Assembly: GCA_017408825.1 (NCBI GenBank) | Contig: JAFQTX010000005.1 | Location: 1-40,252 of the forward strand | Length of the DNA stretch: 40,252 bases | Direction: 5' to 3' | DNA from: Alistipes sp. | Lineage (GTDB): Bacteria > Bacteroidota > Bacteroidia > Bacteroidales > Rikenellaceae | In this document: one piece after another, positions 11,209-34,227 of the stretch | Layout of the letters: every line of letters begins with the position of its first letter | Numbering within the stretch: the first letter of the stretch is position 1 | The notes under the pieces: model-generated | Database searches by the model: none | The model's input: only the letters and a program-made list of their open reading frames with translations | What the model was told of the DNA's origin: nothing | Made by a program: the position numbers and the translations under genes

Positions 11209-11336
11209 TTTTCGATTATAAGGCCGCATCTGCGGCACATCCCCAAAAGTAAGAGGTCTCGGGCTGTACGACCAAAGTACTATCCCGAGGCCTCTTCTTT
11301 TGCGATGCACCACATCTGCGACTCTCTAATCAAAAA
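11209..11336 (+). repeat. 3'-end hairpin element, copy 1 (type A)
   Basis: Begins with TTTTCGATTATAAGG directly after the nqrF TAA and ends CTAATCAAAAA. Parts: a left hairpin GCCGC-ATCT-GCGGC (about 11223-11236); a central hairpin 11251-11296 with stem AAGAGGTCTCGGG/CCCGAGGCCTCTT and apex GTACGACCAAAGTAC; and a right arm CACATCTGCGAC. The outer ends are roughly complementary (TTTTCGATTA/TAATCAAAAA). It probably serves as the operon terminator. Confidence 0.85.
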
Positions 11337-11339
11337 TAA

Positions 11340-11465
11340 TTTTCGACCATAAGGCAGACATCTACTGCCTCTAACAAAAAATGCCGTCAATGGGACGTAC
11401 GCTTTAGTACTACCCATCGACGGCATTTTTGCCGAGCGTTGTATCTGCAGCCTTCTACTCAAAAA
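11340..11465 (+). repeat. 3'-end hairpin element, copy 2 (type B)
   Basis: In tandem with copy 1. Left hairpin GGCAG-ACATCTA-CTGCC; central hairpin about 11376-11430 with stem AAAAATGCCGTCAATGGG / CCCATCGACGGCATTTTT and apex GTACGCTTTAGTAC; right arm GTATCTGCAGCCTT. The T-run at the 3' side of the stem makes it a good terminator. Confidence 0.85.
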
Positions 11466-11530
11466 TTAGGTCGGGGAGAGGTTTCAGGGAGGATAGGGAG
11501 CTTAGGAATTATGGGGATTATTAACCTTAA

Positions 11531-11745
11531 ATTCCCCAATTTCCCCAGTATCCCCAGTATCCCCAGCATCCCTTGTTCACAACCGTCTTAATTTTTTTAG
11601 GGCTATTAAGACCATTAAGACCATTACGAGGTCGGGTATCAGCGTTGTCCGCAACCATCTTAATTGTCTTAATCGTCTTATTGGTCTTAATCGTCTTTGA
11701 TTTTTTAAGACCATTAGGACCATTAAGACCATTACGAAGTCGGGT
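11531..11745. repeat. Cluster of 9-bp-period minisatellites
   Basis: Four short arrays with a 9-bp period: CCCCAGTAT units (11531-11574), AAGACCATT units (about 11602-11632), the opposed GTCTTAATC units (11655-11698) and a second AAGACCATT array (11705-11740). The second and fourth end in CATTACGA(G/A)GTCGGGTATCAG. The last two arrays are complementary to each other in the manner of hairpin arms. No gene is visible in 11466-11846. Confidence 0.8.
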
Positions 11746-11846
11746 ATCAGCTGATGTCTCGGCCTTTGGTGCTCTCGGTCGTTGGCGCTCTGCCTATCTC
11801 TCTTTGATACCTCCCTGAAAGCTCTCTAAACTCTTTATGCGCCCCT

Positions 11847-13226
11847 TTAGTTATCCTTGTGTTGGCTATGTACGTAGAGGCCATTGTTACGCTTGAGTAG
11901 GCGACTCCACCCCGTAGCCCTATCAAAGGCACTATCCTCGTAGCCGCCATCGGCATATCCCAGCGACTCGTATTGATCCCTATTTACGAGAGTCACGGTG
12001 TAGTACACCTTATCCACCGCCTCGACGTTTACTGCTCGCTGGTAGTATATAGCCTCCTCCGAGGCCTTGCGTATGCTATCTGCCGCAGCGTATATCTCAG
12101 CGTCGAGGGTAGCCTCGGCAACACGATATACGACGTCTACAACCTCGTGCATAAAGTTCAGGCGATACCACTCAACTTTTTTCATATAATCCTCCGAGAA
12201 TGTTGCCAGCACGGGATAGTATGACGAGCTAAGGGCGTTGTCTATATCCTCAGTCGTAAAGCCATATTGCTCAAGCATAGCCTCACGGCCAATCTCCAGC
12301 TCTGTGTCGTACAGTGCTATAACCTTATCAACAAAGCTACGTGTCGCCTCGTGGATGTTTCCTACCTTGCTACACTCCGTAATAGAGTGTTCTGTGGTGA
12401 GTTCCATATGCATCTTAGGGTCTTCGTAGTAGTCGTAGGTCATATCAACGAGGCTTTTAGCACAATCGGCTATGCTTCTTGCGTCGTACTCCTCCATCTG
12501 CATAAGTGCCTCGGTGATATAGTATAGCTCGCCACCGCTAATTGTTGTTACGTGGCACGATGCAATGTAGTAATCGACGTATGGTGCGAGCTCGCTTGCA
12601 TACTCTATGCAGTTTACCAAGCAGCAGACCATCTCCATAAGGCTAAAGTGAGTGTCGGTCATCTCGCACGCCTGGCATATATCTTGAATGCCAAGGTACG
12701 ATGTTAGTTTGTCGTCGCGTATGATGCCTCGAGTGTCGTTGCGGTCGAATGCTGGGTGATAGCCATTGCCGTGACCCGCAAATATCATGATATACTCATC
12801 GGCAGGTGCCTCCTCTTTGGCCCAGGTGATAAACTGGGCGAGGCTCTCGGTGCAATTCATATGGTACTCGGCATCTGCAAATTTAGAGTATATGTTACGA
12901 TTACTCTTATGGTCATACTTTAGTCGGCTCACACCACCCTTACCATCGGCATACTCCGAGCGGTAGCCCTCGCTCCACTTTATCTGGCCTACGACATTTA
13001 TGTTCTCGGCAATACCTGTGTCCATCTTATGATAGATGTTTATGACCTCCTCATTATATTGATCCAACTCGCCGCCACAGCAGTAAAACATAATGGTAAA
13101 TGTGCGTTTGGTCTCGGTCTCGGGCCCAGGTTCAGGTCCAGGTTGCGATTGTGGGGTAGTATCCTTGCCGCAGGCGCTGATGAGTAGAGTGAGGATGATG
13201 GCTAAGTGGTGTAAACGAATTCTCAT
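11847..13226 (-). CDS. Clostripain-like (peptidase C11) lipoprotein
   Basis: A 459-residue protein with a lipoprotein signal (LISAC, Cys19) and a short Pro/Glu linker, then a peptidase C11 domain. The catalytic His is most likely H152 in IFAGHGNG, and the nucleophile is Cys202 in the MVCCLVNCIEYA segment, which aligns with the family's DACLM-E-A motif although the Asp is replaced by Val. The start is the ATG at 13226, just before the lipobox. The gene is divergent from the BACON lipoprotein gene. A surface or periplasmic cysteine protease role is likely; the substrate is unknown. The gene ends next to the minisatellite cluster. Confidence 0.85.
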   Translation of the reverse strand: MRIRLHHLAIILTLLISACGKDTTPQSQPGPEPGPETETKRTFTIMFYCCGGELDQYNEEVINIYHKMDTGIAENINVVGQIKWSEGYRSEYADGKGGVSRLKYDHKSNRNIYSKFADAEYHMNCTESLAQFITWAKEEAPADEYIMIFAGHGNGYHPAFDRNDTRGIIRDDKLTSYLGIQDICQACEMTDTHFSLMEMVCCLVNCIEYASELAPYVDYYIASCHVTTISGGELYYITEALMQMEEYDARSIADCAKSLVDMTYDYYEDPKMHMELTTEHSITECSKVGNIHEATRSFVDKVIALYDTELEIGREAMLEQYGFTTEDIDNALSSSYYPVLATFSEDYMKKVEWYRLNFMHEVVDVVYRVAEATLDAEIYAAADSIRKASEEAIYYQRAVNVEAVDKVYYTVTLVNRDQYESLGYADGGYEDSAFDRATGWSRLLKRNNGLYVHSQHKDN

Positions 13227-13251
13227 AGTGGTGGGTGTTTTGATGTTTTTA

Positions 13252-13282
13252 CAAATATAGATATTTTATGCCATATAACCAA
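13252..13282 (-). promoter_or_regulatory. Promoter of the C11 peptidase gene
   Basis: On the minus strand TTG (13282-13280), a 20-base spacer and TATATTTG (13259-13252) match the Bacteroidetes consensus, 26 bases before the ATG. Confidence 0.65.
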
Positions 13283-13333
13283 CCCGTAGCATAATATTTC
13301 GCCCAAAGTATACCTATATTATAAAATAATGTG

Positions 13334-13341
13334 TACCTTTG
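13334..13341 (+). promoter_or_regulatory. -7 element for the BACON lipoprotein gene
   Basis: TACCTTTG matches TAnnTTTG. No clear -33 box is present at the expected distance. The leader to the ATG at 13397 is about 48 bases. Confidence 0.5.
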
Positions 13342-13396
13342 TAGTACGCTAACTAAGTAAGAGTCAATAATACTTAACTAAATATTTGATTACACT

Positions 13397-14665
13397 ATGA
13401 AAAAACTATTGTCATTGGCCTTAGTCGCACTATTGGCCTTTGTGGCATGTGAGCCATCATCTGATAATCTTGGGGTGTCTGGCACGATGCAAATTACCAC
13501 AGAGTCTCCTATCAGCTATTCGTTTGTTGGTGGCCCTGGCGAGATTATCTACACACTCGAGGGTGCTAAGAAGGGCGACATGCCATCGGTAGAGTGTGCC
13601 CAGGAGTGGATTACCGACCTTAGCGTTGCTGACAAAATCACCTTCAACGTAGAGCGTAGCAGTGCTCAGGCGGAGCGTACGGCGATTATCATTGTTAAGT
13701 ATGGTGAGCAGGAGGAGCAGGTATTCGTAAAGCAGGGGGCTACATACGAGCCCGCAAAGATTGAGGTTGAAGCTAAGGCTCTCAACGGCGAGTACCTCGG
13801 CCAAACCAGTGCAGGTACCTACAACTACTTCATTATCCTCTCGGAGAATGGTACTACTGGTTGGTTCGACCTCTACGTAGATAATTACTACCGTCTCTCG
13901 CTCTGTTCAGATATTGCCCCAGCGGATCTAACCCCTGAGAGCCCATCTGTACTCCCCGTAGGTGTTTATTACATTGATGAACTCTCTATGGGTAGTGGCG
14001 GAACCTTTAAGCAGAGTTCAAGCTGGTATGTTGAGTGTAGAGCAGATGGTGGCTTCTTTGAGTCTCAGTACTCTAATGGCGTAGTTATCGTTACCGAGAC
14101 CGGTATTGAGGCATTCCTTACCCTTACTGACGGCACCGTACACCACGTAATGTATGAGGGCAGCCTTGATCTTGGATATATACCATTCCCAGAGCCTGAC
14201 TACTATACATCACTTACCGAGGACTATATATTTGAGCATAATGGCTTTGTGTCGCAGATATACTACTATGCCGACATCGATAATGTTGGCTTGGGCAACT
14301 GGGTTATCACTGCTGCAAACTCATACGATGCAAATATGAATGGCGACTACCTCAAGGTGGATGTATATCTCGATAGTCTTGAGTTCAATCCAGAGCTTAT
14401 CTATGGTGAGTATGATGCTGTTGCTACCTATGATGAGCTTAAGGGCGGCAACTTCCTTGGAGGCGTTAAGGGCTCTTGGCTCTATGGTATTGAGGATGGT
14501 TTCATTGTAAATGGCACTATCGCACCACTTGCTACGGGTAAGGTTAAGATCGAGAAGAGTGGTAACGGAGCTATAATCACTGTAGATTGCGTCGATGACC
14601 TTGGTCATAAGGTTCAGGGTACGTTCGATTGCCCTACTGTGGAGTTTTATGATTTGTCTAAGTAG
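13397..14665 (+). CDS. Lipoprotein with an N-terminal BACON-like domain
   Basis: A 422-residue lipoprotein (lipobox AFVAC, Cys18). Residues about 33-113 form a BACON-like Ig fold: ITTESPISYSFVGGPGEI..., a central W-I, then a strand pattern ending QVFVKQ. The remainder (about 120-422) is beta-rich and aromatic-rich, with no family I can name; it contains repeated G(D/E)Y and DLYVD/VDVYLDS segments that suggest a two-part beta-sandwich. BACON domains are typical of Bacteroidetes surface lipoproteins that bind glycans or mucins, so a surface role is likely. The gene is followed directly by a 3'-end hairpin element. Confidence 0.8.
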   Translation: MKKLLSLALVALLAFVACEPSSDNLGVSGTMQITTESPISYSFVGGPGEIIYTLEGAKKGDMPSVECAQEWITDLSVADKITFNVERSSAQAERTAIIIVKYGEQEEQVFVKQGATYEPAKIEVEAKALNGEYLGQTSAGTYNYFIILSENGTTGWFDLYVDNYYRLSLCSDIAPADLTPESPSVLPVGVYYIDELSMGSGGTFKQSSSWYVECRADGGFFESQYSNGVVIVTETGIEAFLTLTDGTVHHVMYEGSLDLGYIPFPEPDYYTSLTEDYIFEHNGFVSQIYYYADIDNVGLGNWVITAANSYDANMNGDYLKVDVYLDSLEFNPELIYGEYDAVATYDELKGGNFLGGVKGSWLYGIEDGFIVNGTIAPLATGKVKIEKSGNGAIITVDCVDDLGHKVQGTFDCPTVEFYDLSK

Positions 14666-14667
14666 AT

Positions 14668-14797
14668 GTAATTTCTTGAGATAAGGCAGCATCTACTTCC
14701 GCTAACAAAAGAAAATGCGAATGAGCAGTACGCTTTAGTACAGCCCATCCGCATTTTTTTTGCCGAGCGTTGTATCTGCTACCTTCTCCCAACAAAT
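14668..14797 (+). repeat. 3'-end hairpin element, copy 3 (type B)
   Basis: Begins 3 bases after the TAG of the BACON gene with AATTTCTTGAGATAAGG. The central hairpin 14712-14757 (AAAATGCGAATGAGC / GCCCATCCGCATTTT, apex GTACGCTTTAGTAC) has two A-C oppositions as read along the gene, which become G-U on the other strand. A T8 run follows. Right arm: GTATCTGCTACCTTCT. Confidence 0.8.
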
Positions 14798-14810
14798 TGG
14801 GTCTGAGCGC

Positions 14811-14900
14811 TTGTTAAGGTTGTGATTAGTGAATTTAGGGAGGTTATTGAAGTTAGGGCGTCAAGTGAAGTTAGGGAATTTAGTGTCTGCTCCCTAATCT
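14811..14900. repeat. Degenerate G/A-rich and opposed C/T-rich repeats
   Basis: Decayed units of the GAATTTAGGGAG / GAAGTTAGGG kind followed by opposed CTCCCTAATCT and a C9 run. It sits in the same place relative to copy 3 as the 9-bp arrays do after other copies. The rest of 14666-15027 holds no gene. Confidence 0.5.
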
Positions 14901-15027
14901 CCATACCCCCCCCCTGAATGTGTAAAAAAGAACAATTTTTTAAGCTACCCAAAGTGAGCATTTTGCGCTATTTCGTAGTGTTAAAAAGATAACAACGAAA
15001 ATTCTATGAATTCTCGTTCAAAATACG

Positions 15028-15035
15028 TACCTTTG
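15028..15035 (+). promoter_or_regulatory. -7 element of the pyruvate oxidoreductase gene
   Basis: TACCTTTG matches TAnnTTTG; the -33 region is weak. It places the transcription start near 15042, leaving a leader of about 145 bases. Confidence 0.55.
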
Positions 15036-15041
15036 CTCCGA

Positions 15042-15185
15042 TTTTTGTTGAAGTGGAGCTATAGTTCATTCCCCGACTATCCCACAATGCCGCAAGGCGC
15101 TGCAACACTTTTACCCCGTAGGGGTATCCTAAACAAGGTGTTGCACCCCCTAAGCAACGAAATTGATATTAAAAAGTAATAAACT
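15042..15185 (+). promoter_or_regulatory. Structured 5' leader of the pyruvate oxidoreductase gene
   Basis: Contains a GCC-GCAA-GGC hairpin with a GNRA-type tetraloop (15089-15098). An 8-bp stem follows, TGCAACAC (15101-15108) with GTGTTGCA (15138-15145), enclosing TACCCC-GTA-GGGGTA (15112-15126). GTTGC 15140-15144 can instead pair with GCAAC 15154-15158, so two exclusive folds are possible. Function unknown; a cis-regulatory RNA is a reasonable reading. Confidence 0.5.
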
Positions 15186-18100
15186 ATGGCAGAAAAGAAA
15201 TTTATTACCTGTGATGGTAACTACGCCGCAGCACATATTGCATATATGTTCTCGGAGGTGGCAGCCATCTATCCTATCACACCATCATCAACCATGGCAG
15301 AGCTTGTTGATGAGTGGTCAGCACAAGGCAAAAAGAACATTTTTGGTGACACCGTAAAGGTTGTCGAGATGCAGTCTGAGGCGGGTGCCGCAGGTGCTGT
15401 GCATGGCTCATTGCAGAGCGGTGCATTGACATCTACTTTTACCGCTTCTCAGGGCTTGCTCCTCATGGTGCCAAACATGTATAAGATCTCTGGCGAGTTG
15501 CTCCCAGGTGTGTTCCACGTATCGGCACGTGCCCTCGCAGCACAGTCACTCTCAATATTTGGTGACCACCAGGATGTGATGGCTGTACGTCAGACAGGCT
15601 TCGCTATGCTCGCTACATCATCTGTTCAGGAGGTTATGGACCTTGCAGGTGTTGCCCACATCGTAGCACTCAAGTCACGTATTCCATTCGTACACTTCTT
15701 CGATGGCTTCCGCACATCACACGAGATTCAGAAGATCGAGCTTATCGACGAGGCATCGCTCTCGGCAATGTTCGATCGTGAGGCACTCCGCGAGTTCCGC
15801 CGTCGTGCGCTCAACCCTGAGCGTCCTGTGACACGTGGTACTGCGCAGAACCCCGACATCTACTTCCAGACACGTGAGGCATCAAACAAGTTCTACAACG
15901 CTGTGCCTGATATGGTGGCTGAGGCTATGGCCAAGATTTCGGATATCACAGGCCGTGAGTACAAGCCATTCACATACTATGGCGATCCCGAGGCTGAGAA
16001 CATCATCATCGCCATGGGCTCTGTTACCGAGACTATCAAGGAGTGCGTAGACTACCTCCGTACGCAGGGCAAGAAGGTGGGTGTTATCACCGTGCACCTC
16101 TACCGTCCATTCTCGGCAAAGTATCTATTCAACGTGCTTCCTAAGAGCGTTAAGCGTATCTGCGTGCTTGACCGTACAAAGGAGCCAGGATCTAACGGCG
16201 AGCCACTATTGCTCGACATTCGTGATGCATTCTACGAGTGCGACGCACGTCCTATGATTATTGGTGGCCGCTATGGTCTATCATCTAAGGATACCACTCC
16301 AGCGCAGATGTTGGCAGTATTTGCTAATCTCGAGGCTGAGGAGCCTAAGAACCACTTCACCGTGGGTATCAACGATGATGTTACGATGCTATCGTTGCCC
16401 GTAGGCAAGGAGATTTCGATGGCTAAGGAGGGTACCTTCGAGGCGTTGTTCTTCGGCCTTGGTTCTGATGGTACTGTGGGTGCTAATAAGAACTCAATTA
16501 AGATTATCGGTGGCTCTACCAACAAGTATTGCCAGGCATACTTCTCATACGACTCTAAGAAGTCGGGTGGTTACACATCATCGCACCTTCGCTTTGGTGA
16601 TAACCCAATCACATCGCCTTACTTGGTGACTACACCAGACTTCGTGGCTTGCCACGTGCCTTCGTACGTAGACAAGTACGATGTGCTCAAGGGTCTTAAG
16701 CGTGGTGGCTCATTCCTTCTTAACTCGGTAAACGATGCTGAGACAACATGCCGCACGCTCCCAGCACACATGAAGCAGTACATGGCAAAGAAGGGTATTA
16801 ACTTCTACATCATCAACGCTACGAAGATTGCCACCGAGCTTGGCCTTGGCTCACGTACCAATACCATTATGCAGGCAGCATTCTTCAAGATTGCCGACAT
16901 CATTCCTATTGAGAAGGCTGTCGAGGAGATGAAGAAGGCTATCTACAAGTCATATGGTAACAAGGGCGAGGATATCGTGAATATGAACTACGCTGCGGTA
17001 GATGCCGGTTGCGAGGCTGTTGTTAAGGTAGATGTTCCTGCAGAGTGGTCCGACATCGAGGTGTCGGAGGCAGCACACGTTATTGATGAGAGCGTGCCAG
17101 CATTCGTACGTAACGTATGTGAGCCTATCGACGCTCTTAAGGGTGATATGCTACCTGTATCGGCATTCAACGGCCGTGAGGATGGTACTTGGGATAACGG
17201 TACTGCAGCCTACGAGAAGCGTGGTATCGCCACATCAGTGCCTCAGTGGAAGATTGAGAACTGTATCCAGTGTAACCAGTGTGCATATGTATGTCCTCAC
17301 GCTGCCATCCGTCCATTCCTCGCTACCGAGGAGCAGGCTGCTGCTTCGGGCATTGAGTGGAAGCAGGGCTTGGGCGAGACAAAGGCTCTGAAGTTCCGTA
17401 TCCAGCTGTCACCACTCGACTGTACAGGCTGTAGCAACTGTGTGGATGTATGTCCTGCTAAGGATAAGGCTCTTGTGATGCGTCCATTGGCTGAGCAGGT
17501 TGCTGAGGCTAAGAACTGGGACTATATCACCAAGAATATCGGCTACACCGAGTACGTAGACAAGACCAAGTCTGTGAAGAACCTCCAGTTCTCACAGCCA
17601 CTCTTCGAGTTCTCGGGTGCATGTGCTGGTTGCGGTGAGACTCCATATATCAAGGCTATCTCACAGCTCTTTGGCGACCGTATGATGGTGGCTAACGCTA
17701 CTGGCTGTACATCAATCTACTCTGGCTCTGCACCATCTACTCCATACTGCACAAACGCTCAGGGTCAGGGTCCTGCATGGGCCAACTCACTCTTCGAGGA
17801 TAATGCTGAGTTTGGTCTCGGTATGCGCATCGGCGTTGAGAAGCTGCGTCAGGGTCTTGAGGATGTTATGCGCAAGGCTATTGCTGAGTGCAACTGCTGC
17901 TCTGAGGAGCTTAAGGCGACTATGCAGGAGTGGATTGACGCTCGTCACCTTGCTGCAGCATCACGTGAGGTTACGGCACGTCTGCTTCCATTGGTTGAGG
18001 CTTGTGACTGCAGCTACTGCAAGACTATCCTTGAGTATAAGGATTGGTTGGTTAAGAAGTCGCAGTGGATCATCGGTGGTGACGGCTGGGGCTACGACAT

Positions 18101-18704
18101 TGGCTTCGGAGGTGTTGATCACGTACTCGCATCGGGCGAGGATGTAAATATCCTTATCGTTGATACTGAGGTTTACTCAAATACCGGTGGTCAGTCATCT
18201 AAGTCTACACCTGTGGGTGCTGTTGCTAAGTTCGCATCGGCAGGTAAGCGCATCCGTAAGAAGGATATTGGCGCTATCGCAATGACCTATGGATATGTAT
18301 ATGTTGCTCAGGTATCTATCGGCGCATCGCAGCAGCAGCTCTTCAATGTACTTAAGGAGGCTGAGGCTTATCCTGGTCCATCGCTCATCATCGCCTACGC
18401 ACCATGCATCAACCACGGTATCAAGGGTGGTATGACACGCACTCAGACCGTCGGTAAGCAGGCTGTTGAGTGCGGCTACTGGCACCTCTGGCACTACAAC
18501 CCACAGCTCGAGGCTGAGGGCAAGAACCCATTCGTGATGGACTCTAAGGAGCCTGATTGGTCGAAGTTCCGTGACTTCCTTATGAAGGAGGTACGTTATA
18601 CTTCGCTTAAGAAGGCCTTCCCAGCTGAGGCTGAGCAGCTTTTCGAGGCTGCCGAGGAGAATGCTAAGTGGCGTTATAACTCTTATATCAACCGCACGAA
18701 GTAA
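15186..18704 (+). CDS. nifJ: Pyruvate:ferredoxin (flavodoxin) oxidoreductase, single-chain
   Basis: A 1172-residue homodimer-type PFOR, of normal length, that converts pyruvate and CoA to acetyl-CoA, CO2 and reduced ferredoxin. In order: the pyruvate-binding N-terminal domain (AAHIAYMFSEVAAIYPITPSS), the CoA-binding domain, two 4Fe-4S motifs (Cys693/696/699/703 and Cys746/749/752/756), the proximal cluster Cys813 and Cys816 in GACAGCGETPY, and the TPP domain with GDGWGYDIG near 965 and NTGGQSS near 1000. The start is the ATG at 15186, which leads straight into the conserved KKFITCDGN. It is monocistronic, with its own promoter and leader, and is followed by a 3'-end element. Confidence 0.97.
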   Translation: MAEKKFITCDGNYAAAHIAYMFSEVAAIYPITPSSTMAELVDEWSAQGKKNIFGDTVKVVEMQSEAGAAGAVHGSLQSGALTSTFTASQGLLLMVPNMYKISGELLPGVFHVSARALAAQSLSIFGDHQDVMAVRQTGFAMLATSSVQEVMDLAGVAHIVALKSRIPFVHFFDGFRTSHEIQKIELIDEASLSAMFDREALREFRRRALNPERPVTRGTAQNPDIYFQTREASNKFYNAVPDMVAEAMAKISDITGREYKPFTYYGDPEAENIIIAMGSVTETIKECVDYLRTQGKKVGVITVHLYRPFSAKYLFNVLPKSVKRICVLDRTKEPGSNGEPLLLDIRDAFYECDARPMIIGGRYGLSSKDTTPAQMLAVFANLEAEEPKNHFTVGINDDVTMLSLPVGKEISMAKEGTFEALFFGLGSDGTVGANKNSIKIIGGSTNKYCQAYFSYDSKKSGGYTSSHLRFGDNPITSPYLVTTPDFVACHVPSYVDKYDVLKGLKRGGSFLLNSVNDAETTCRTLPAHMKQYMAKKGINFYIINATKIATELGLGSRTNTIMQAAFFKIADIIPIEKAVEEMKKAIYKSYGNKGEDIVNMNYAAVDAGCEAVVKVDVPAEWSDIEVSEAAHVIDESVPAFVRNVCEPIDALKGDMLPVSAFNGREDGTWDNGTAAYEKRGIATSVPQWKIENCIQCNQCAYVCPHAAIRPFLATEEQAAASGIEWKQGLGETKALKFRIQLSPLDCTGCSNCVDVCPAKDKALVMRPLAEQVAEAKNWDYITKNIGYTEYVDKTKSVKNLQFSQPLFEFSGACAGCGETPYIKAISQLFGDRMMVANATGCTSIYSGSAPSTPYCTNAQGQGPAWANSLFEDNAEFGLGMRIGVEKLRQGLEDVMRKAIAECNCCSEELKATMQEWIDARHLAAASREVTARLLPLVEACDCSYCKTILEYKDWLVKKSQWIIGGDGWGYDIGFGGVDHVLASGEDVNILIVDTEVYSNTGGQSSKSTPVGAVAKFASAGKRIRKKDIGAIAMTYGYVYVAQVSIGASQQQLFNVLKEAEAYPGPSLIIAYAPCINHGIKGGMTRTQTVGKQAVECGYWHLWHYNPQLEAEGKNPFVMDSKEPDWSKFRDFLMKEVRYTSLKKAFPAEAEQLFEAAEENAKWRYNSYINRTK

Positions 18705-18831
18705 TTTTCGATTATAAGGTCGCATCTGCGGCACATCTCAAAAAGTAAGAGACCTCGGGCTGTACGCCAAAGTACTATCCCGAGGCCTCTTCTTTTGCGA
18801 TGCACCACATCTACGACCTTCTAATCAAAAA
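18705..18831 (+). repeat. 3'-end hairpin element, copy 4 (type A)
   Basis: Starts directly after the TAA with TTTTCGATTATAAGG. Left arm GTCGCATCTGCGGC; central hairpin 18747-18792 (AAGAGACCTCGGG / CCCGAGGCCTCTT, apex GTACGCCAAAGTAC); right arm CACATCTACGACCTTC, ending CTAATCAAAAA. The outer ends pair: AAGGTCG with CGACCTT, GATTA with TAATC. Confidence 0.85.
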
Positions 18832-18875
18832 TTTTCGACTATAAGGCCGCATCTGAGACCTTCTAATCAAAAATT
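18832..18875 (+). repeat. 3'-end hairpin element, copy 5 (internally deleted)
   Basis: Only 44 bp: the left end TTTTCGACTATAAGG with GCCGCATCTG is joined directly to the right end GACCTTCTAATCAAAAA. The whole central hairpin is missing. The joint lies at the ATCT(G/A) sequence that occurs in both arms of full copies. Confidence 0.75.
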
Positions 18876-18909
18876 GGGTCGGGGAGGGGTTTCAGGGAGG
18901 ATAGGGAAG

Positions 18910-19031
18910 ATGGGGATTATGGGGACTATGGGGACGATGGGGACTATGGGGACTATGGGGATCACTATCCCTAATCTCCTTAAATTCCCCAGCATCCCCA
19001 GCATCCCCAGCATCCCCAATTTCCCCAGTTT
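18910..19031. repeat. Opposed 9-bp-period arrays
   Basis: A left array of GGGGACTAT units (18910-18962, period 9) faces a right array of CCCCAGCAT units (18986-19031, period 9), so the two can form a long imperfect hairpin. A single AAGACCATTACGAGGTCGGG block follows (19039-19060). Frames open across this stretch are repeat artefacts. Confidence 0.8.
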
Positions 19032-19147
19032 GGGACCAATAAGACCATTACGAGGTCGGGTATCGCCGATGTCTTGGCCGTTGGCGCTCTTGTCCGTAAC
19101 CATCTTAATTGTCCTAAATGTCTTAATCTCTTATTATCCTTAAAAAA

Positions 19148-19185
19148 GCAAATGGGCTGTACTCTCAACGGTACAGCCCATTTGC
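19148..19185 (-). terminator. Terminator of the phosphofructokinase gene
   Basis: A perfect 15-bp stem, GCAAATGGGCTGTAC with GTACAGCCCATTTGC, around an 8-base loop, followed on the minus strand by a T-tract (A-run at 19142-19147 on the plus strand). Its apex, GTAC...GTAC, has the same shape as the apex of the 3'-end elements. Confidence 0.9.
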
Positions 19186-19227
19186 TCTCTATAGTTAGGG
19201 TTTCAAATAGACCCTAATCATGCTATA

Positions 19228-20612: not shown

Positions 20613-21290
20613 ATGAGAAAGATATTTACTCTTTTAATAGCATTTTTTGTGGCCACACCACTCTTTGCTCAGAGCCCATTCAATGGCCGCATCAGAAACA
20701 ATGAGGGTAAAGGCGTGCGTGCTCGCATCGTCGTTGAGGGTAGTGGCAAAATGACATATTCGGATGGCAAGGGGCGCTTCGGCCTTACTGACGTAAAGGA
20801 GGATGACACGCTCCTCGTGATATATAAGCGTGACACTCTGCGTGTTGCTGTTGATGGCCGTCGTAGCATAGATATTGGCCTCAATCTTAGTAACTTTACA
20901 TACGAGGCCGCAGAGTCTGAGGAGCTGATGAGCTACGGCTTTGGCTATGTCAAGCGCCGTGAATCGACCGATTACTCATCGGGTATTTCGGGCGATAGAC
21001 TACGTGCTACGGGTGCTAAGGGGCTTATCGAGGCGATACAAATGTGCTACCCGGGACTTCGCTATATCAATGGCGAGCTATGCCTGCTCACGCAGAACTC
21101 TATAAATAGCACTTCTGGTGTACTTATCCTATGCGACGGTATGGAGACACGTCCCGAGCTTATTAGCCTCTACGATGTAAAGTCAGTGGAGATTATCAAG
21201 GGCTCGAATATGTATGGCTTCAGAGGAGTGAATGGCGTAGTCCTTATTACTACGATGACGGCGGAGGATGCTATTAATCGCCAACGCTAA
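20613..21290 (+). CDS. Short secreted protein: carboxypeptidase-regulatory-like domain plus TonB-receptor plug, no barrel
   Basis: 225 residues with a signal peptide (cleavage expected after LFA, residue 19). Residues about 22-90 resemble the carboxypeptidase-D regulatory-like domain found at the front of SusC-type receptors (GRIRNNEGKGVRARI...YSDGKGRF). Residues about 125-217 match the TonB-dependent receptor plug (SGVLILCDGMETRPELISLYDVKSVEIIKGSNMYGFRGVNGVVLITT). The protein then stops; no beta-barrel follows in any frame and the downstream DNA is a 3'-end element, so this is a complete plug-only protein rather than a truncated one. It may bind a partner receptor or TonB. It has no SusD gene nearby. 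Confidence 0.8.
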   Translation: MRKIFTLLIAFFVATPLFAQSPFNGRIRNNEGKGVRARIVVEGSGKMTYSDGKGRFGLTDVKEDDTLLVIYKRDTLRVAVDGRRSIDIGLNLSNFTYEAAESEELMSYGFGYVKRRESTDYSSGISGDRLRATGAKGLIEAIQMCYPGLRYINGELCLLTQNSINSTSGVLILCDGMETRPELISLYDVKSVEIIKGSNMYGFRGVNGVVLITTMTAEDAINRQR

Positions 21291-21415
21291 TCTCTTGTGA
21301 TAAGGGGTCGATTGCGTCCCCTAACAAAAAATGCCACCAATGGGACGTACGCCAAGTACTACCCATCGGTGGCATTTTTGCCGAGTGTAGCACTCGGCAC
21401 CCTTCTGACAAGAAA
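21291..21415 (+). repeat. 3'-end hairpin element, copy 6 (type B)
   Basis: Directly follows the TAA. Left hairpin AGGGG...CCCCT (21303-21322); central hairpin 21325-21378 (AAAAATGCCACCAATGGG / CCCATCGGTGGCATTTTT, apex GTACGCCAAGTAC); right hairpin GCCGAGTG-TAG-CACTCGGC. Stem sequences differ from the other copies, but pairing is kept. Confidence 0.85.
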
Positions 21416-21442
21416 TTAGGCTTTGGTGCTAATCAAGGTTAT

Positions 21443-21537
21443 CGTTAGGGAGTCTAAGGAATTTAGAGAACTTAGGGAGATTAACGACCTGCGCTAAACT
21501 CCCTAAATTCACTAAATTCACTAAATTCCCTACCTCT
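21443..21537. repeat. Opposed 9-bp-period arrays
   Basis: A right array of ACTAAATTC units (21499-21531, period 9) faces a looser left array of TTTAGGGAG/GAATTTAGA units (about 21443-21482). The rest of 21416-21548 holds no gene. Confidence 0.7.
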
Positions 21538-21548
21538 TACCCTATCAA

Positions 21549-23761: not shown

Positions 23762-23763
23762 CG

Positions 23764-25047: not shown

Positions 25048-25088
25048 AGTATATGATGTTTGTCGTTTTCAATTAATACATTAGTCAC

Positions 25089-25239: not shown

Positions 25240-25293
25240 TGCTGAAAGTCCTATGTTACTATTTGCTCTCACGGTTAGGTCGTAGTTGTTATG

Positions 25294-25325: not shown

Positions 25326-25415
25326 TTTTTTCGAAACTATATATTCAAAGTTGTCTATATTGCTCCTAATATCACTATTTCGAAGAATTGGTTTTCGTTT
25401 TTGGTATTAATTTAT

Positions 25416-25423
25416 TATCTTTG
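25416..25423 (+). promoter_or_regulatory. -7 element that sets the start of the DUF4834 gene
   Basis: TATCTTTG at 25416-25423, with TTCG about 18 bases upstream. Because it lies downstream of the first in-frame start at 25388, translation must begin later, at 25463. Confidence 0.6.
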
Positions 25424-25462
25424 CCACGTACTATTTATATAAGGATAGTGCACTTTGTGAAG

Positions 25463-25924: not shown

Positions 25925-25960
25925 TGTGAATTAACTCTTAAGTGGATAACGATTATAGCG

Positions 25961-27456: not shown

Positions 27457-27495
27457 GAGAGATATTAGATTTTATTAAAAAATTTTAATATTTTA

Positions 27496-28597
<1,102 letters not shown>

Positions 28598-28723
28598 TTT
28601 TCGATTTTATTGGGCATCTTTAGCCCATCCCAAAAAGTAGACTACCGCAGGCTGTACGTCAAAGTACTATCCTGCGGTAGTCTCTTTTGCGATAGACTAA
28701 ATCTGCCGCACTAAAATCAAAAA
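28598..28723 (+). repeat. 3'-end hairpin element, copy 7 (type A, divergent stem)
   Basis: Starts directly after the TAA (TTTTCGATTTTATTGGG). Left hairpin TGGGC-ATCTTTA-GCCCA; central hairpin 28639-28683 with a perfect 13-bp stem AGACTACCGCAGG / CCTGCGGTAGTCT and apex GTACGTCAAAGTAC. The stem differs at most positions from copies 1, 4 and 8, yet it pairs fully. Confidence 0.85.
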
Positions 28724-28725
28724 TA

Positions 28726-28852
28726 TTTTCGATTATAAGGCCGCATCTGCGGCACATCCCAGAAAGTAAGAGACCTCGGGCTGTACGCTAAAGTACTATC
28801 CCGAGGCCTCTTCTTTTGCGATGCACCACATCTACGACCTTCTAATCAAAAA
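28726..28852 (+). repeat. 3'-end hairpin element, copy 8 (type A)
   Basis: In tandem with copy 7. Nearly identical to copy 4: left hairpin GCCGC-ATCT-GCGGC, central hairpin 28768-28812 with apex GTACGCTAAAGTAC, end CTAATCAAAAA. Confidence 0.85.
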
Positions 28853-28867
28853 TTGGGTCGGGTGGAT

Positions 28868-28928
28868 TTTTTTAAGACCATTGGGACCATTAAGACCATT
28901 AGGACCATTAAGACCATTACGAGGTCGG
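28868..28928. repeat. 9-bp-period array (AAGACCATT type)
   Basis: Six units of the form (A/G)(A/G)GACCATT with period 9, ending CATTACGAGGTCGGGCATCAG, the same ending as the arrays near 11632, 11745 and 19060. No gene lies in 28853-28957. Confidence 0.8.
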
Positions 28929-28957
28929 GCATCAGGCTGCGCCTCCATAATATTGGG

Positions 28958-29920
28958 CTACGGCTTTGCGTTGCCCCTGTCTCGTTGGTAGTTAGTTCTG
29001 ATATAATCCATTGCCGAGAAGCGAGTGGGGCGGCGCTCACCATCGAGCGTTATGACCGAGGTTGTCGTCTGCTCACGTCTCCCCGCAATGACAAACTCTT
29101 GGATAAACTGCACGATAAGGTCGCACTGCTCAAACAGCGGTGTACCCGCAAGGCGGTGGTCGGCATACTCTACGGAGTAGAACCAGTAGGGTGAGTTGAG
29201 CTTGTCGAGTTGGCGGGTGATATACTCCGAGCCGTAGAAGCCAACGCCAAACAACGAGGCGTGGTCGTAGGGAACGTTGCTATCTGACGTGCCGTGGAAT
29301 AGCAGCATAGGGGCAGGTGAGGTGGCGAACTTAGGCCTTCCGTGGCGTGAGAATATAGCTCCTGCGCACGATACCACGCCCGCATAGCGGAAGCCCTCAG
29401 GGAGTACCTCGGCAAGGCTATCGTCATTAGAGCGTAGCCACTCAGCCTGGAGTGCTGTGATAGCACCGGCACTCGAGCCACTGAGCATAATCTTCGTTGG
29501 GTCTACGCACCACTCTTTGGCATTGGCATACACGAAGTTAGTGGCGCAGTACATATCCTGCACGGCGATTGTAATTGCATTATCGAATATGTCAATCATC
29601 GCTCTTGCGCTATCAATCTTAGGGAGGTTTTTAAGTCCTAAGCGGTAGTCGATAGATACCACTACGATGCCCTCACGTGCGAGGTGCTCGAAGAAGATAC
29701 GGTAGTAGTCTACATCACGTGAGCCCTGCACAAAGCCGCCACCAAAGGCAAAGATCATGCACGGACGAGGTGTATCGCACTGCTCCTCGGCAACATATCT
29801 GTCGAGATATAGCTCCTCCCCGCAGTGTGTAGCGTAGTGGTAGGTATGGCGCACAATCTCTTGTCCATAGAGCGTGGTGCAGCATAGCACACACCATAAT
29901 GTCAATACTATTCGTTGCAT
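28958..29920 (-). CDS. Secreted alpha/beta hydrolase (esterase-like)
   Basis: 320 residues with a signal peptide (cleavage near LYG, residue 19). Oxyanion segment FGGGF (59-63), where many esterases have HGG; nucleophile Ser150 in GSSAG; HGTSDSNVPY and EYADHRL probably supply the Asp and His. The layout is that of the BD-FAE/hormone-sensitive-lipase-like group, so ester cleavage of a small or carbohydrate-linked substrate is likely. Starts 11 bases after the phosphodiesterase stop, so the two are probably co-transcribed. Its 3' end lies next to the minisatellite array. Confidence 0.82.
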   Translation of the reverse strand: MQRIVLTLWCVLCCTTLYGQEIVRHTYHYATHCGEELYLDRYVAEEQCDTPRPCMIFAFGGGFVQGSRDVDYYRIFFEHLAREGIVVVSIDYRLGLKNLPKIDSARAMIDIFDNAITIAVQDMYCATNFVYANAKEWCVDPTKIMLSGSSAGAITALQAEWLRSNDDSLAEVLPEGFRYAGVVSCAGAIFSRHGRPKFATSPAPMLLFHGTSDSNVPYDHASLFGVGFYGSEYITRQLDKLNSPYWFYSVEYADHRLAGTPLFEQCDLIVQFIQEFVIAGRREQTTTSVITLDGERRPTRFSAMDYIRTNYQRDRGNAKP

Positions 29921-29931
29921 AGTCCTATTGT

Positions 29932-30438
29932 TTAGTCGTTATCAGCCAGATGTTTAGGCCATTCGCCGATCTCCATATTCTTAATCTCGCCTTGTTCGAT
30001 GTCGAGACGTATTGCTGTGCGCAGATGGTGGATGCCGTAGTTGCCAGCGGCGCCAGGGTTTACAAATAGCATATCGTAGACCTTGTCGTACTCAACGCGC
30101 AGTATGTGCGAGTGTCCTGCAATAAAGAGTTTTGGACGTGAGGCGTGGATATGTTGTAGGGCTTTAGGCGAATAGCTGCGTGGCTTGCCGCCAATATGTG
30201 TCATCAGTACTCGTACGCCCTCGCACTCAAAGAGCGTAAAGTCGTGATATACACGGCGCATAAGGCCTCCGTCGATATTGCCACATACGGCTCTTAGAGG
30301 GCGAAACTCAGCTATGCGGTCGGCGACCTCGAGCGATCCTATATCACCAGCGTGCCATATCTCTTGACAGGGCGATAGGAACTCCTTGAGGGTGTCGTCG
30401 AAGGTGGTGTGGGTGTCGGATATAATGCCTATTTTCAT
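29932..30438 (-). CDS. YfcE/MJ0936-type metallophosphoesterase
   Basis: 168 residues with the full set of calcineurin-like metal-binding motifs: DTH (8-10), GD (31-32), GN (53-54), His81 and GHSH (108-111). Size and motif spacing match the YfcE/MJ0936 group of small phosphodiesterases. Cytoplasmic, with no signal peptide. Substrate unknown. Its promoter overlaps that of the divergent esterase gene. Confidence 0.9.
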   Translation of the reverse strand: MKIGIISDTHTTFDDTLKEFLSPCQEIWHAGDIGSLEVADRIAEFRPLRAVCGNIDGGLMRRVYHDFTLFECEGVRVLMTHIGGKPRSYSPKALQHIHASRPKLFIAGHSHILRVEYDKVYDMLFVNPGAAGNYGIHHLRTAIRLDIEQGEIKNMEIGEWPKHLADND

Positions 30439-30458
30439 AATATCGGGTTTGAGTGTAG

Positions 30459-30486
30459 CAAATATACGAAAAAAATTGTATCTTTG
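30459..30486. promoter_or_regulatory. Closely packed divergent promoters
   Basis: TATATTTG on the minus strand (30466-30459) and TATCTTTG on the plus strand (30479-30486) are only 12 bases apart. -33 boxes are weak on both sides. The plus-strand leader would be only about 18 bases. Confidence 0.5.
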
Positions 30487-30511
30487 TATTGTACATTAAA
30501 AGGTCGTGACT

Positions 30512-31681
30512 ATGAAACGTTTATCTCTGTTTGCATACATCGTAGGCTTAGTACTTATCTTTGGCCTAACGCCTACCTCGGCACAGCAAAACCTATGGCA
30601 GCGCAAGAGTGTTACTTCGCCCGAGGTACACTCTGATGGTAGCGTTACACTACGTCTATACGCCCCTAACTCCGAGAGTGTGATGCTCTTTGGCGACTTT
30701 GCACACGGCTCGAAGTCGGAGCCTATGACGATGACACGTCTCGAGGATGGCGTGTGGGAGTACACCTCAGAGCCTTTGGCCTCGGAACTATACTACTACT
30801 GGTTTATCGTCGATGGCATAGATCACGTTGCCGATCCCTCGAATAGCTACGTTATGCGTGATGTAGGCTCGCAGATGAACTATTTTATCATCCCTGGCGA
30901 GCGTGGCGACCTCTACTCAGCACAAAACGTGCCACACGGCACTCTATCACGTGTGTGGGCCAAGATATCGGATGGCCGTGAGCGCCGTATGACTATCTAT
31001 ACCCCTGCGGGTTACGAGTCAGGCAAGGGTCGTTATCCGGTGTTGTATCTCCTACACGGCATGGGTGGCGATGAGGAGGCCTGGGTTGCCACGGGACGTG
31101 TTGCCGAGATTATGGATAACCTCATTGCTCAGCGTAGGGCCGAGCCAATGATTGTGGTGATGACAAATGGCTGTACCAAGCATGTGGCAGCGCCTGGATA
31201 CTCGCACGAGGGTATGTGGTCGCCATATATGTCGGGCTCGATGGATGGCTCGTTCGAGCGATTGTTCCCCTCTGTGGTAGAGTGGGTTGATACACACTAC
31301 CGCACACTCTCTAAGGCTGAAGCTCGTGCCATAGCGGGATTATCCATGGGTGGCTTTCACTCGATGCATATATCTAAGGAGTATCCCGCAATGTTCGACT
31401 ATGTGGGCCTATTCTCGGCGGCGGTATTTCGTGGCGAGAAGGGTGTCGATGTCTACGAGAATATTGAGGAAAAACTTGCCAAGCAGTTTGCCGCAGATCC
31501 AAAGCTCTACTGGATAGCTATTGGCAAGGATGACTTCCTCTACGAGGAGAATGTTGAGTATCGCAAACTCCTCGACAAGTGTGGCTATGAGTATACCTTT
31601 CGTGAGACGGGCGATGGCCACATTTGGCGTAACTGGCGAATATACCTCACGGAGTTCGCACAGCTGATCTTCAAAAAGTAA
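30512..31681 (+). CDS. Secreted CE1/esterase D-like esterase with N-terminal E-set domain
   Basis: 389 residues from the ATG at 30512; an in-frame GTG two codons earlier is less likely. Signal peptide to about residue 24 (TSA/QQ). Residues about 35-128 form a CBM48-like E-set domain (VTLRLYAPNSESVMLFGDF...YYYWFIVDG). The catalytic domain has YLLHGMGGDEEAW, nucleophile Ser278 in GLSMGG and His370 in GDGHIWRNW. This arrangement is common in Bacteroidetes feruloyl/acetyl-xylan esterases, so plant or host glycan ester cleavage is likely. 19 bases separate it from the nuclease lipoprotein gene. Confidence 0.88.
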   Translation: MKRLSLFAYIVGLVLIFGLTPTSAQQNLWQRKSVTSPEVHSDGSVTLRLYAPNSESVMLFGDFAHGSKSEPMTMTRLEDGVWEYTSEPLASELYYYWFIVDGIDHVADPSNSYVMRDVGSQMNYFIIPGERGDLYSAQNVPHGTLSRVWAKISDGRERRMTIYTPAGYESGKGRYPVLYLLHGMGGDEEAWVATGRVAEIMDNLIAQRRAEPMIVVMTNGCTKHVAAPGYSHEGMWSPYMSGSMDGSFERLFPSVVEWVDTHYRTLSKAEARAIAGLSMGGFHSMHISKEYPAMFDYVGLFSAAVFRGEKGVDVYENIEEKLAKQFAADPKLYWIAIGKDDFLYEENVEYRKLLDKCGYEYTFRETGDGHIWRNWRIYLTEFAQLIFKK

Positions 31682-31700
31682 AACATAAAATCTTGGAGCC

Positions 31701-33833
31701 ATGAGAAGACTTCGAATAGTATCATACGTGCTACTTGCGCTTGTTGGCGTTGGGTGCTCCTTTACATCCTCTACAACACCCGAAGAGGCTGATAAACTTG
31801 TTATTAAGGTGTCATCGTCGGATGACGCAGAGTGGTGCGAGGGCGATGAGATAGCTGTCATTGAGTGTGGTGCAGCCTACCGCACGTCGCAGTGCATACA
31901 TGTCGAGGAGGGGGGTGATGCTACATTCACCCTCGAAGAGCCTAATGCCGAATGTGAGGAGTTTGGCTATGGAGCAATATTCCCTGCCGATGCTGTTATC
32001 GAGGATGATAGTATTGATCTGAGTAGGGTACGCCTGGTATTGCCATTGGAGCAGTCGCCCGATGGTGCGATGTTCGATATTAGTGCAGACCTGCGTGTAG
32101 CTCCTTATGTTACATACGAGGCTATGCCCCAGCCTCTTAAGTTGGAGTTTCGTAGGGTGACGGCCATGGGTGCGCTCACCATCGAGAACCTTCCAGAGGG
32201 TAGCGTGATAAACAGCGTAAAGCTCTCTGCCGAGGGGGCTACTCCATTTGCCGGTGAGCTTGTTGTAGACCTCAGCTCGGGGGCTGTTACCTATGACAAG
32301 ATGTCGTCAGAGCTAAGGCTCAGTTACAAGCAGGGTGTCTCTTCTGAGCAGATGCTCTACTTTATAACCTCACCCTCGGTTCTTAAGGCTGGTAGTCTGC
32401 TTAAGGTGGATATTGAGTGTGGTGAGCAGCACTATGAACATACACTGACACTCGATACTGATGTAGAGTTCTCCGTTACGGAACTCCCAGAGCTTGTCGT
32501 TACACTTGAGAAGGCTCCAGAGCCCGACGTCTGTACTTTCCGCCGTGTGGATAAGGTTACCTCAGGTAAGGCATATCTTATTGCTGCTGAGCATTGTGTG
32601 GCACAACCTATCGAGTATTCTAAGTATGGCTATCTTAAGAGCGTGGATGGCGATACCGACGACGATGGCGTTATCGTTTTTAGCGACTGCGCCAACGCCT
32701 TTTATATCGAGGCTAAGGATGGAGGCTATACGCTTCGTCAAGTTGTGGACAACCGCTATTTGTATCAATACAAGGATTATAACTCTGTGAATGTAGACGC
32801 AGCACCTACCGAGGGTGATGTGTGGAGTATAACTAAGAGTGGCGATGCGTTCAAAATCACCAATGTATCTAAGGGCAAGTACCTGCAGTACGACCTCTCG
32901 TATAGCTCGTTTGGTAGCTATTCAGATAGCCGTGGCACACTACCTCAGCTCTACGAGCTTGAGGGTGAGGTAATTCTCCCCGAGGAGGGTGATGACGGCG
33001 GCTACGACGGTGGTGACGATGGCAACGAAGATGATGGTGGCGGTAGTGTGGGTGATAGTACCCAGACAATCAAATATGGCCTTGAGCTACCAGCAAAGCC
33101 TGCCGATGGAGCATATCCTAATGCCAAATGGGTTGTTGTGCGATATGAAAATGAGGATAACTATACCCACTACTATGATGTCGATACATACACCTCGCTG
33201 TGGGTGGCATATCCGCTTGCTGCACGCCATATGGGCTCTATTGGTCGCCCCGATGCGTGGGACTGGAATCCATATATTAGCACCTCCGATCAGATAAACC
33301 TATGCTCACGTAGCTATGCTGGCGACTACTCACGAGGTCACCTTATCCCTAATGCCTCGCGTAATGGTATCCGAGGGATGCAGCTACAAACATTCTACGT
33401 TACCAACTCCGTTCCGCAGGTGCAGGAAGGCTTCAATGGCGGCATCTGGCAGAAACTTGAGGCAGCGTTGCAGAATATCGCTGAGAGTGAGACTATATAT
33501 ATCGTTACTGGCGTGGCATTTAATAAAATAGGCGAGAGCCGCACAATAGGCTATACCAAGGCCAAGGATGATACCAAGAGTGTGCCCGTGCCAAACTACT
33601 TCTATAAGGTTGTGCTTAAGATCAAGTGTGACGAGGAGGGTAACGTCTCAGATGCTATGACCGTTGGCTTCTGGTTTGAGAATAAGTATTATGACAACAA
33701 TACATATTCAAACTATGCCGTATCGGTAGATCAAATCGAGGAGTGGACTGGCTTCGACTACTTCCCCGCCATTGGCAATCTTCAGACCGATGCGGAGAGT
33801 AACAAGTCGTGGAGTGAGTTCAAATCATTCTAA
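31701..33833 (+). CDS. Multidomain lipoprotein with a C-terminal DNA/RNA non-specific endonuclease domain
   Basis: 710 residues with lipobox GVGC (Cys19). About 30-270 resembles a fimbrillin-like fold (LVIKVSSSDDAEWCEGDEIAV..., AYVTYE-type strands). About 280-425 is a small beta domain (DKVTSGKAYLIAAE). An Asp/Gly-rich linker follows (about 430-455), then a NUC-family nuclease domain to the end. The NUC active-site motif reads SRGHLIPNASR (Ser544, His547) instead of the usual DRGH; the metal-binding Asn is probably Asn569 in TNSVPQ. It is probably displayed outside the cell to degrade nucleic acids. Co-transcribed with the esterase gene. Activity should be checked because of the Asp-to-Ser change. 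Confidence 0.82.
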   Translation: MRRLRIVSYVLLALVGVGCSFTSSTTPEEADKLVIKVSSSDDAEWCEGDEIAVIECGAAYRTSQCIHVEEGGDATFTLEEPNAECEEFGYGAIFPADAVIEDDSIDLSRVRLVLPLEQSPDGAMFDISADLRVAPYVTYEAMPQPLKLEFRRVTAMGALTIENLPEGSVINSVKLSAEGATPFAGELVVDLSSGAVTYDKMSSELRLSYKQGVSSEQMLYFITSPSVLKAGSLLKVDIECGEQHYEHTLTLDTDVEFSVTELPELVVTLEKAPEPDVCTFRRVDKVTSGKAYLIAAEHCVAQPIEYSKYGYLKSVDGDTDDDGVIVFSDCANAFYIEAKDGGYTLRQVVDNRYLYQYKDYNSVNVDAAPTEGDVWSITKSGDAFKITNVSKGKYLQYDLSYSSFGSYSDSRGTLPQLYELEGEVILPEEGDDGGYDGGDDGNEDDGGGSVGDSTQTIKYGLELPAKPADGAYPNAKWVVVRYENEDNYTHYYDVDTYTSLWVAYPLAARHMGSIGRPDAWDWNPYISTSDQINLCSRSYAGDYSRGHLIPNASRNGIRGMQLQTFYVTNSVPQVQEGFNGGIWQKLEAALQNIAESETIYIVTGVAFNKIGESRTIGYTKAKDDTKSVPVPNYFYKVVLKIKCDEEGNVSDAMTVGFWFENKYYDNNTYSNYAVSVDQIEEWTGFDYFPAIGNLQTDAESNKSWSEFKSF

Positions 33834-33887
33834 TCACCTGTCAGAGTGGCGCTAAGCAGGTCGATTGTCAATAAGCTATAATTTGAT

Positions 33888-34101
33888 GTCAGAAGGTGGT
33901 TAGTTGTGGCCTCGATAAAGCGAAATGGCGGATGGGAGTGTTGTTGCCCAATTTGTCGTCAAAAGTAGTGAGATGTGGTGCTAAATGAAAACTCCCCGGA
34001 TGGGTTGAAATTTAGCGTCAGAGTGGTGCTAATTTGATGCCGATAAAGAGAAAAAACAAAAGAGGAATATTCGACAATTTCTTGTCAGATGTCGGTTGTA
34101 A
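33888..34101. repeat. Decayed tandem units related to the 3'-end element
   Basis: Units beginning GTCA(G/A) at about 33888, 33957, 34017 and 34085 share pieces of GTGG(T)TAG(T/A)TGTGGCCTCGATAAAG and CGGATGGG. The same pieces form the distal arm and stem of element copy 9. No gene is visible in 33834-34213. Confidence 0.5.
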
Positions 34102-34227
34102 GTTTTGCAAAATAAGTGGTTAGATGTGGCCTCGATAAAGAAATTGCCCTGGATGGGTAGTACTTGGCGTACGTCCCATTCAGGGCAATGATTAAGAGGT
34201 TGCAGATGACTGCTTATTTTGCAAAAC
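34102..34227 (-). repeat. 3'-end hairpin element, copy 9 (type B, minus orientation)
   Basis: Serves the minus-strand GGGtGRT gene. Central hairpin 34189-34143 (ATTGCCCTGAATGGG / CCCATCCAGGGCAAT as transcribed, apex GTACGCCAAGTAC); proximal hairpin GCAG-TCAT-CTGC. A perfect outer inverted repeat TTTTGCAAAATAAG / CTTATTTTGCAAAA reaches into the last codons of the gene. Confidence 0.8.

Follow-up and report, generated by a model that had tools for sequence, protein, structure and literature searches.

Gene-end repeats in the window

The window analysed here is a 40,252-nt stretch of DNA (contig JAFQTX010000005.1, positions 1 to 40,252), one contig of the 1.89-Mb, 83% complete genome of an Alistipes sp. 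(assembly GCA_017408825.1). It carries nine copies of a repeat unit of ~126 nt at the ends of genes. A preliminary description made from the sequence letters had reported nine copies lying directly behind stop codons. All nine are confirmed, every copy is oriented with its gene, and the stems listed at the time are present in the copies; the position holds for six of the nine, whereas the other three lie directly behind another unit. The copies are as follows.

11207..11338, plus strand: unit 1, type A, apex GGGCTGTACG..AGTACTATCCC, beginning at the stop codon of nqrF (gene identified by TIGR01941, over cut-off)
11338..11467, plus strand: unit 2, type B, apex GGGACGTACG..AGTACTACCC, directly 3' of unit 1
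14670..14798, plus strand: unit behind an open reading frame (ORF), 13397-14665, without a family match at E 1e-10
18703..18833, plus strand: unit at the stop codon of pyruvate:ferredoxin oxidoreductase (PFOR), 15186-18704
18830..18875, plus strand: remnant of a second unit, with the two outer arms retained and the centre deleted (coordinates counted on the sequence)
21289..21417, plus strand: unit at the stop codon of ORF 20613-21290 (weak SusC-like match, under the family cut-off)
28596..28725, plus strand: unit at the GAPDH stop codon (gene 27524-28597)
28724..28854, plus strand: second unit, of a different subtype, abutting the preceding one
34101..34228, minus strand: unit at the stop codon of a GGGtGRT-family gene, 34214-35215 (minus strand)

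Architecture and pairing of the unit

The whole unit is able to fold as one long imperfect stem, with its two ends pairing together; 146 full-length units measure 117-134 nt. From the ends inward, the stem comprises: an outer stem of freely variable sequence; a conserved region, GTGATAAG/CTTCTGAC or ATTATAAGG/CCTTCTAAT, that contains mismatches; inner helices bearing CATCT motifs; a stem rich in GC; and, at the apex, a 4-bp RTAC/GTAY stem. Similar internal mismatches are shared by many units. What had been described as a separate left hairpin and right arm together make up this single stem, each being one half of it, and the apex, taken to be constant, has a compensated variant in which GTAC...GTAC becomes ATAC...GTAT (outermost apex pair A-T in 13 of 70 units). 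Local hairpins win over the long stem in some folds of the gene strand. Units also stack head to tail with almost no spacer, forming 61 distinct arrays among the loci examined.

Pairing was assessed on 72 diverse units kept from 275 full ones. Alignment A3 holds 70 of these in the sense of the gene, with one shortened unit and one almost perfect palindrome omitted, and alignment A4 holds 67 on the opposite strand, with five omitted. On another alignment, A2, RNAalifold returned 6 pairs; its subtypes are probably misaligned in the stems and the model derived from it, R1, is thus nearly sequence-only. A3, A4 and model R2 were used in their place.

On the gene strand, 78.7% of cells are paired, compared with 63.4% in shuffles and at most 41.6% in slid versions, over which the scored structures of either strand are favoured because they come from the same sequences. 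Changes occur on both sides in 44 of 52 pairs, and none of 500 shuffles reaches any of the five measures. On the opposite strand, 84.1% of cells are paired (66.6% shuffled, at most 44.2% slid), both partners vary in 44 of 53 pairs, and covariation scores 0.473, compared with 0.188 for the control and 0.336 for the gene strand. The outer helix, with 94.0% of its cells paired on the opposite strand, amounts to terminal inverted repeats of the kind found in DDE-type miniature inverted-repeat transposable elements (MITEs). The covariation that the preliminary description had called strong is therefore far above both the shuffled and the slid controls. By itself, this does not prove a selected RNA, as template switching can also restore pairing.

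The strand that keeps the pairing

The two strands of the unit are not equivalent. Read on the gene-sense strand, 371 cells are A.C mismatches and 131 are G.U pairs. The A.C excess is present at the 21 best-paired positions (41:18) and at the 22 intermediate ones (181:82), and 144 of the 371 A.C cells are concentrated in five column pairs. An A.C cell on one strand reads as a G.U pair on the other, which places the G.U pairs on the opposite strand. Folding energies point the same way: among the 275 units, which include close copies and are not independent, the gene strand has the lower energy in 24 with RNA parameters and in 6 with DNA parameters, and the mean energy is -68.6 kcal/mol for the opposite strand and -55.2 kcal/mol for the gene strand.

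Replication-strand mutation bias was considered as a cause of the A.C excess and is ruled out. In all seven units that lie on the lagging strand, the strand opposite the gene is again preferred, the gene strand being the more stable in none. One of these, 34101..34228, is the sole lagging-strand unit of the window as judged by GC skew, and its antisense strand folds at -60.0 kcal/mol compared with -37.8 kcal/mol. Moreover, the strand carrying the units is G- and T-rich overall, so that mutation bias would yield the reverse asymmetry. A further 21 loci were inspected, five in G070 (same genus) and 16 in three other families. One of them, L392, is a plain terminator at a gene end with the stronger gene strand, and was excluded; among the rest, all 16 loci with an assignable gene end have the weaker fold on the gene-sense strand (five in G070 and 11 outside the genus).

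The strand kept foldable thus lies opposite the mRNA, making the structured 3' untranslated region (3'-UTR) RNA proposed in the preliminary description unlikely. A kink-turn (box C/D-like GTGATA/CTGAC), judged by eye, was also rejected: its bulge is one base only, and it is absent from type A.

Placement at stop codons and on the leading strand

Placement was examined for 118 full units in contiguous stretches of 17 genomes, with 919 ORFs for comparison. The stretches cover: from the window's own genome, the window itself, 378 kb of two contigs, and one 20-kb stretch picked for its unit; 400 kb of G003; and the surroundings of the nqrF end in 15 genomes. For 79 of these units the position is the stop codon of an ORF (100 aa or longer) on the same strand, and 55 of the 79 are no more than one base away from the ORF end. 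Another 25 follow immediately upon a preceding unit; the two groups together make up 104 of the 118. Of the rest, 13 are found in other places and 1 only at a stop codon of the opposite strand. None lies inside an ORF. Random placement relative to genes is not observed, and the gene-end specificity seen in the window extends to this larger sample.

The anchoring reaches into the stop codon itself. TAA is the stop of 64 of the 79 unit-bearing ORFs, compared with 519 of 919 ORFs (p 1.4e-5). In 206 first units (phylogenetically non-independent), pairing of the third stop base with the far end follows the identity of that base: TAA gives A-T in 131 of 178; TAG gives G-C in 16 of 23; and TGA gives A-T in 3 of 5. 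The first base is paired in only 42 of the 206, indicating that the stem starts within the stop codon.

The units are also strongly biased with respect to replication. Taking the strand of positive GC skew to be the leading strand (the skew is near zero in G017 and G107), units are distributed 111:7 between leading and lagging strands, compared with 513:406 for ORFs (p 1.2e-18). All 35 units in a 400-kb stretch of one contig are on one strand.

Beyond these, 42 further carrier genes were noted. The 20 that were scanned include purH, purB, lipoamide dehydrogenase, methylmalonyl-CoA mutase (in both genomes), PFOR and ileS, while 7 of the 20 have no family at E 1e-30.

Copying and turnover

Within the window's own genome, 47 pairs of near-identical units show identities of 0.79-1.0 up to the unit ends and ~0.2-0.5 outside, with a short shoulder of identity, up to 0.72, just beyond each end. 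These sharp boundaries indicate that a defined unit has been copied between unrelated gene ends.

At orthologous gene ends, the presence of the unit varies. For nqrF, the profile finds a unit in 23 of the 30 genomes that match best; for PFOR the count is 19 of 30, and both figures include the window's own genome. Two loci scored as empty, L191 and L196, show a diverged unit by eye. Units at orthologous ends are 0.09-0.70 identical to those of the window, the lowest values belonging to truncated units, whereas the coding sequences are 0.78-0.94 identical. In several genomes, an ordinary T-tract hairpin terminator, recognised by eye, replaces the missing unit at the orthologous gene end.

Segment 19228-21290 keeps the window's orientation in G120 and G098, and is inverted relative to PFOR in G022, G075, G067, G017, G099 and G107, with breakpoints near unit-bearing gene ends. 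In G120, G022 and G075, the interval from nqrF to PFOR holds other sequence, and nothing in it aligns with the pair of genes that two units enclose at window positions 11468-14669.

Distribution of the family

The apex pattern GTACGN{1,6}AGTACTA occurs 36 times in the window's own genome, where its reversed control gives 0. It is found in 110 of 151 genomes of the genus, in up to 100 copies; two other genomes have 63 and 100. As the reversed control reaches 6 in one genome, single apex matches are uninformative, and in 16 genomes of other families the pattern gives 0-3 matches and the control 0-8. Among the at least 80 named matches listed for the type-B apex, 78 have Alistipes or Rikenellaceae in their titles; the remaining 2 are two stretches of one contig titled 'Bacteroidales bacterium'. 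The type-B pattern has no match in viral contigs.

Model R2 gives at least 147 matches in G003, at least 150 in G072, 16 in G070 and 0 in G001; the counts of 147 and 150, like another model count of 132, include or may include second readings of a single palindrome on its opposite strand. In a strictly filtered search of 247 Bacteroidales genomes, R2 also had matches beyond the genus, in 4 genomes that belong to three families; two genomes from a different genus in the family of Alistipes had no match. By eye, the architecture is kept in 15 of the 16 loci inspected in the four outside-genus genomes. The nine copies of the window belong to a real dispersed family, with rare relatives in three other Bacteroidales families.

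Comparison with known systems

Integron attC sites are close to the unit in size, and their consensus has an R-box pair, RYYYAAC ... GTTRRRY, at the ends. They share further traits with it: both are imperfect palindromes behind stop codons, and in both the bottom strand is the folding strand (the top strand is the stabler one in just 24 of 275 units). The unit nevertheless does not qualify as a member of the integron family. The box pair is found in 0 of 356 units, and the integron integrase TIGR02249 is over cut-off in 0 of 101 genomes of the genus (weaker matches occur in all 101, and likewise in 14 of 14 control genomes). The units are also dispersed, several of them behind central metabolic genes, while attC sites are clustered with their cassettes. 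The unit may still work in the manner of a folded-strand substrate. In sedentary chromosomal integrons (SCIs), the bottom strand is reported to lie on the leading-strand template in 25 of 30 (PMC5371416), and raised cassette excision is described for the cholerae array (PMC5371416, PMC11023631).

Repetitive extragenic palindromic (REP) elements and bacterial interspersed mosaic elements (BIMEs), with their REP-associated tyrosine transposases (RAYTs), resemble the unit in being dispersed palindromic repeats in intergenic DNA. REP elements are given as 20-40 bp (PMC3733652), whereas full units are 117-134 nt rather than 20-40 nt hairpins, and are locked to the stop codon. A REP hairpin has GTAG or a similar tag at its foot; in the units, GTAG stands near the left end in 13 of 356. 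The RAYT connection raised in the preliminary description is not supported: the Y1 transposase PF01797 occurs in 2 of 151 genomes of the genus, G092 and G142, neither of which is copy-rich or the window's own (0 and 1 apex matches, respectively).

ERIC and Correia elements are MITE-like palindromes similar to the unit in size, terminal inverted repeats and copy number. RU-1 is listed as a 127-bp unit (PMC2759123). The units described here differ in that the outermost pair varies with the stop codon, they lie mostly on the leading strand, and they have no target-site duplication. At 345 ends, with k of 2-8 and five offsets, duplication was near shuffled values, with small excesses at k 2-3 only; a DDE-type MITE that makes such duplications was rejected on this ground. 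Inverted pairs of the DNA uptake sequences DUS and USS are repeats that double as gene-end terminators. The unit differs from them in being a ~126-nt covarying stem with no fixed uptake word, present in tens to about a hundred copies. Reverse transcriptase occurs in 34 of 101 genomes, once in the window's own, and was not found in the copy-rich but incomplete G017, G022 and G044; given this patchy occurrence, it is unsupported as the mover.

Rfam gave no match in the window at gathering score. For one unit pair, with E up to 10, it gave 10 weak matches far under their gathering scores, the best (E 0.061) to an unrelated miRNA family. The open-licence PMC literature, at the level of search listings, yielded no description of this unit family.

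Interpretation

The units are tentatively interpreted as ~126-nt long-stem DNA elements that are discretely copied, locked to gene ends, and working as folded single-stranded DNA. In the best reading of its placement and strand preference, the unit would obey the orientation rule of the attC sites of chromosomal integrons. The working form would be the opposite strand folded single-stranded, most simply as DNA; this folded strand may be a substrate for copying or recombination, like the folded attC bottom strands of integrons; and the same pressure as is invoked for integron arrays would confine units mainly to leading-strand gene ends. Since stop codons and a hairpin with a T-tract come with the unit on the gene-sense strand, its insertion at the end of a gene would cost little and the gene would tolerate the element. 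The unit may also end transcription.

Several observations weigh against this interpretation. A mover was not found: copy-rich genomes have no Y1 transposase, no integron integrase is over cut-off in 101 genomes, and reverse transcriptase is patchy and absent from three copy-rich but incomplete assemblies. Target-site duplications stay near shuffled values. In addition, no clean empty site was seen; chimaeric arms, which attC-like exchange should produce, were not clearly apparent when the 61 arrays were inspected by eye; several carriers are central metabolic genes (nqrF, PFOR, GAPDH, purH, purB, ileS), unlike integron cassettes; and G.U-rich pairing is also expected of a structured RNA.

This last point underlies the main rival, a repeated non-coding RNA family transcribed antisense, from the strand opposite the gene, with its 3' end abutting the stop codon. 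Both the many G.U pairs of that strand and a GA/GA motif near its apex, seen by eye in at least 4 outside-genus relatives, are consistent with such an RNA. We consider it unlikely, though a serious contender: no promoter was recognised by eye inside the unit (no dedicated promoter search was made), a promoter shared by the family cannot sit outside it because the unit flanks are unrelated, Rfam has no match in the window at gathering score, and both the leading-strand bias and the stop-codon lock are left unexplained. That the unit is instead a transcription terminator or structured 3'-UTR of the gene, with outer arms that protect or regulate the mRNA, is improbable. The inner hairpin is terminator-like: at least 5 T in the 9 positions after the inner stem are found in 53 of 70 units on the gene strand and in 33 of 70 on the opposite strand, and the ordinary hairpins that take the place of some missing units would fit this function. 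A terminator, however, would be required whichever replication strand a gene is on, yet 111 of the 118 units are leading, and the gene-sense strand is the poorer folder with its A.C mismatches; a simple terminator scan gave no more hits than shuffles did, although stems with internal loops are beyond its reach. The sequence features suggest that termination is likely a side function of the unit.

Passive palindromes, in which template switching copies arm onto arm with no selection on structure, would account for the stems by a route described as able to generate and maintain them (PMC8794818). An example may be L047 4475-4606 (G000:C16:84475) in the window's own genome, an almost perfect ~130-nt palindrome whose left arm has apparently been rewritten from the right, as expected from a recent template switch. 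As an explanation of the family, this process is very improbable and largely refuted by the strand asymmetry: copying of arms gives Watson-Crick pairs and no excess of A.C over G.U, similar internal mismatches are retained in many units, and the strand preference tracks the gene rather than the fork in all seven lagging units. That the unit is a genuine integron attC site or REP element whose enzyme has diverged is barely credible. The size, imperfect palindrome, position behind stops, opposite-strand folding and orientation rule do resemble attC, but the box pair, an integrase over cut-off and, in the copy-rich genomes, a Y1 transposase are all missing.

More doubtfully, the units could constitute a new class of mobile element that spreads via a folded single strand (leading-strand template or opposite-strand RNA) and targets the stop codon itself, so that its terminal pair includes the last base of the stop. 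In some Bacteroidales genomes, such an element would colonise the ends of mainly leading-strand genes and replace terminators there. Three odd rules are found together in the family: exact stop-codon anchoring with a matching far end, leading-strand bias, and pairing best kept opposite the mRNA. An abundant, genome-shaping repeat of this kind suggests a copying route in common gut bacteria without a recognised mover, and provides a natural experiment on whether the folding of single strands at the fork decides where palindromes may live. It also carries a caution: covariation at gene ends, even when strong, is not sufficient to infer mRNA structure.

Other repeats in the window

Arrays with a 9-bp period (GGGGACTAT.., TAGGGAATT..) lie right behind units at 11478-11580, 18913-19025, ~21440-21540 and 28866-28920. 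They form long imperfect inverted repeats of their own, and similar arrays lie behind units in other genomes. Positions 4969-5241 hold a tandem repeat of three copies with an 87-bp period, upstream of the ORF at 5439. A palindrome of another kind (GCAAGCTAACGCTTGC / CTTTAGC..) is located at 36150-36290, and similar sequence is found at gene ends in G120.

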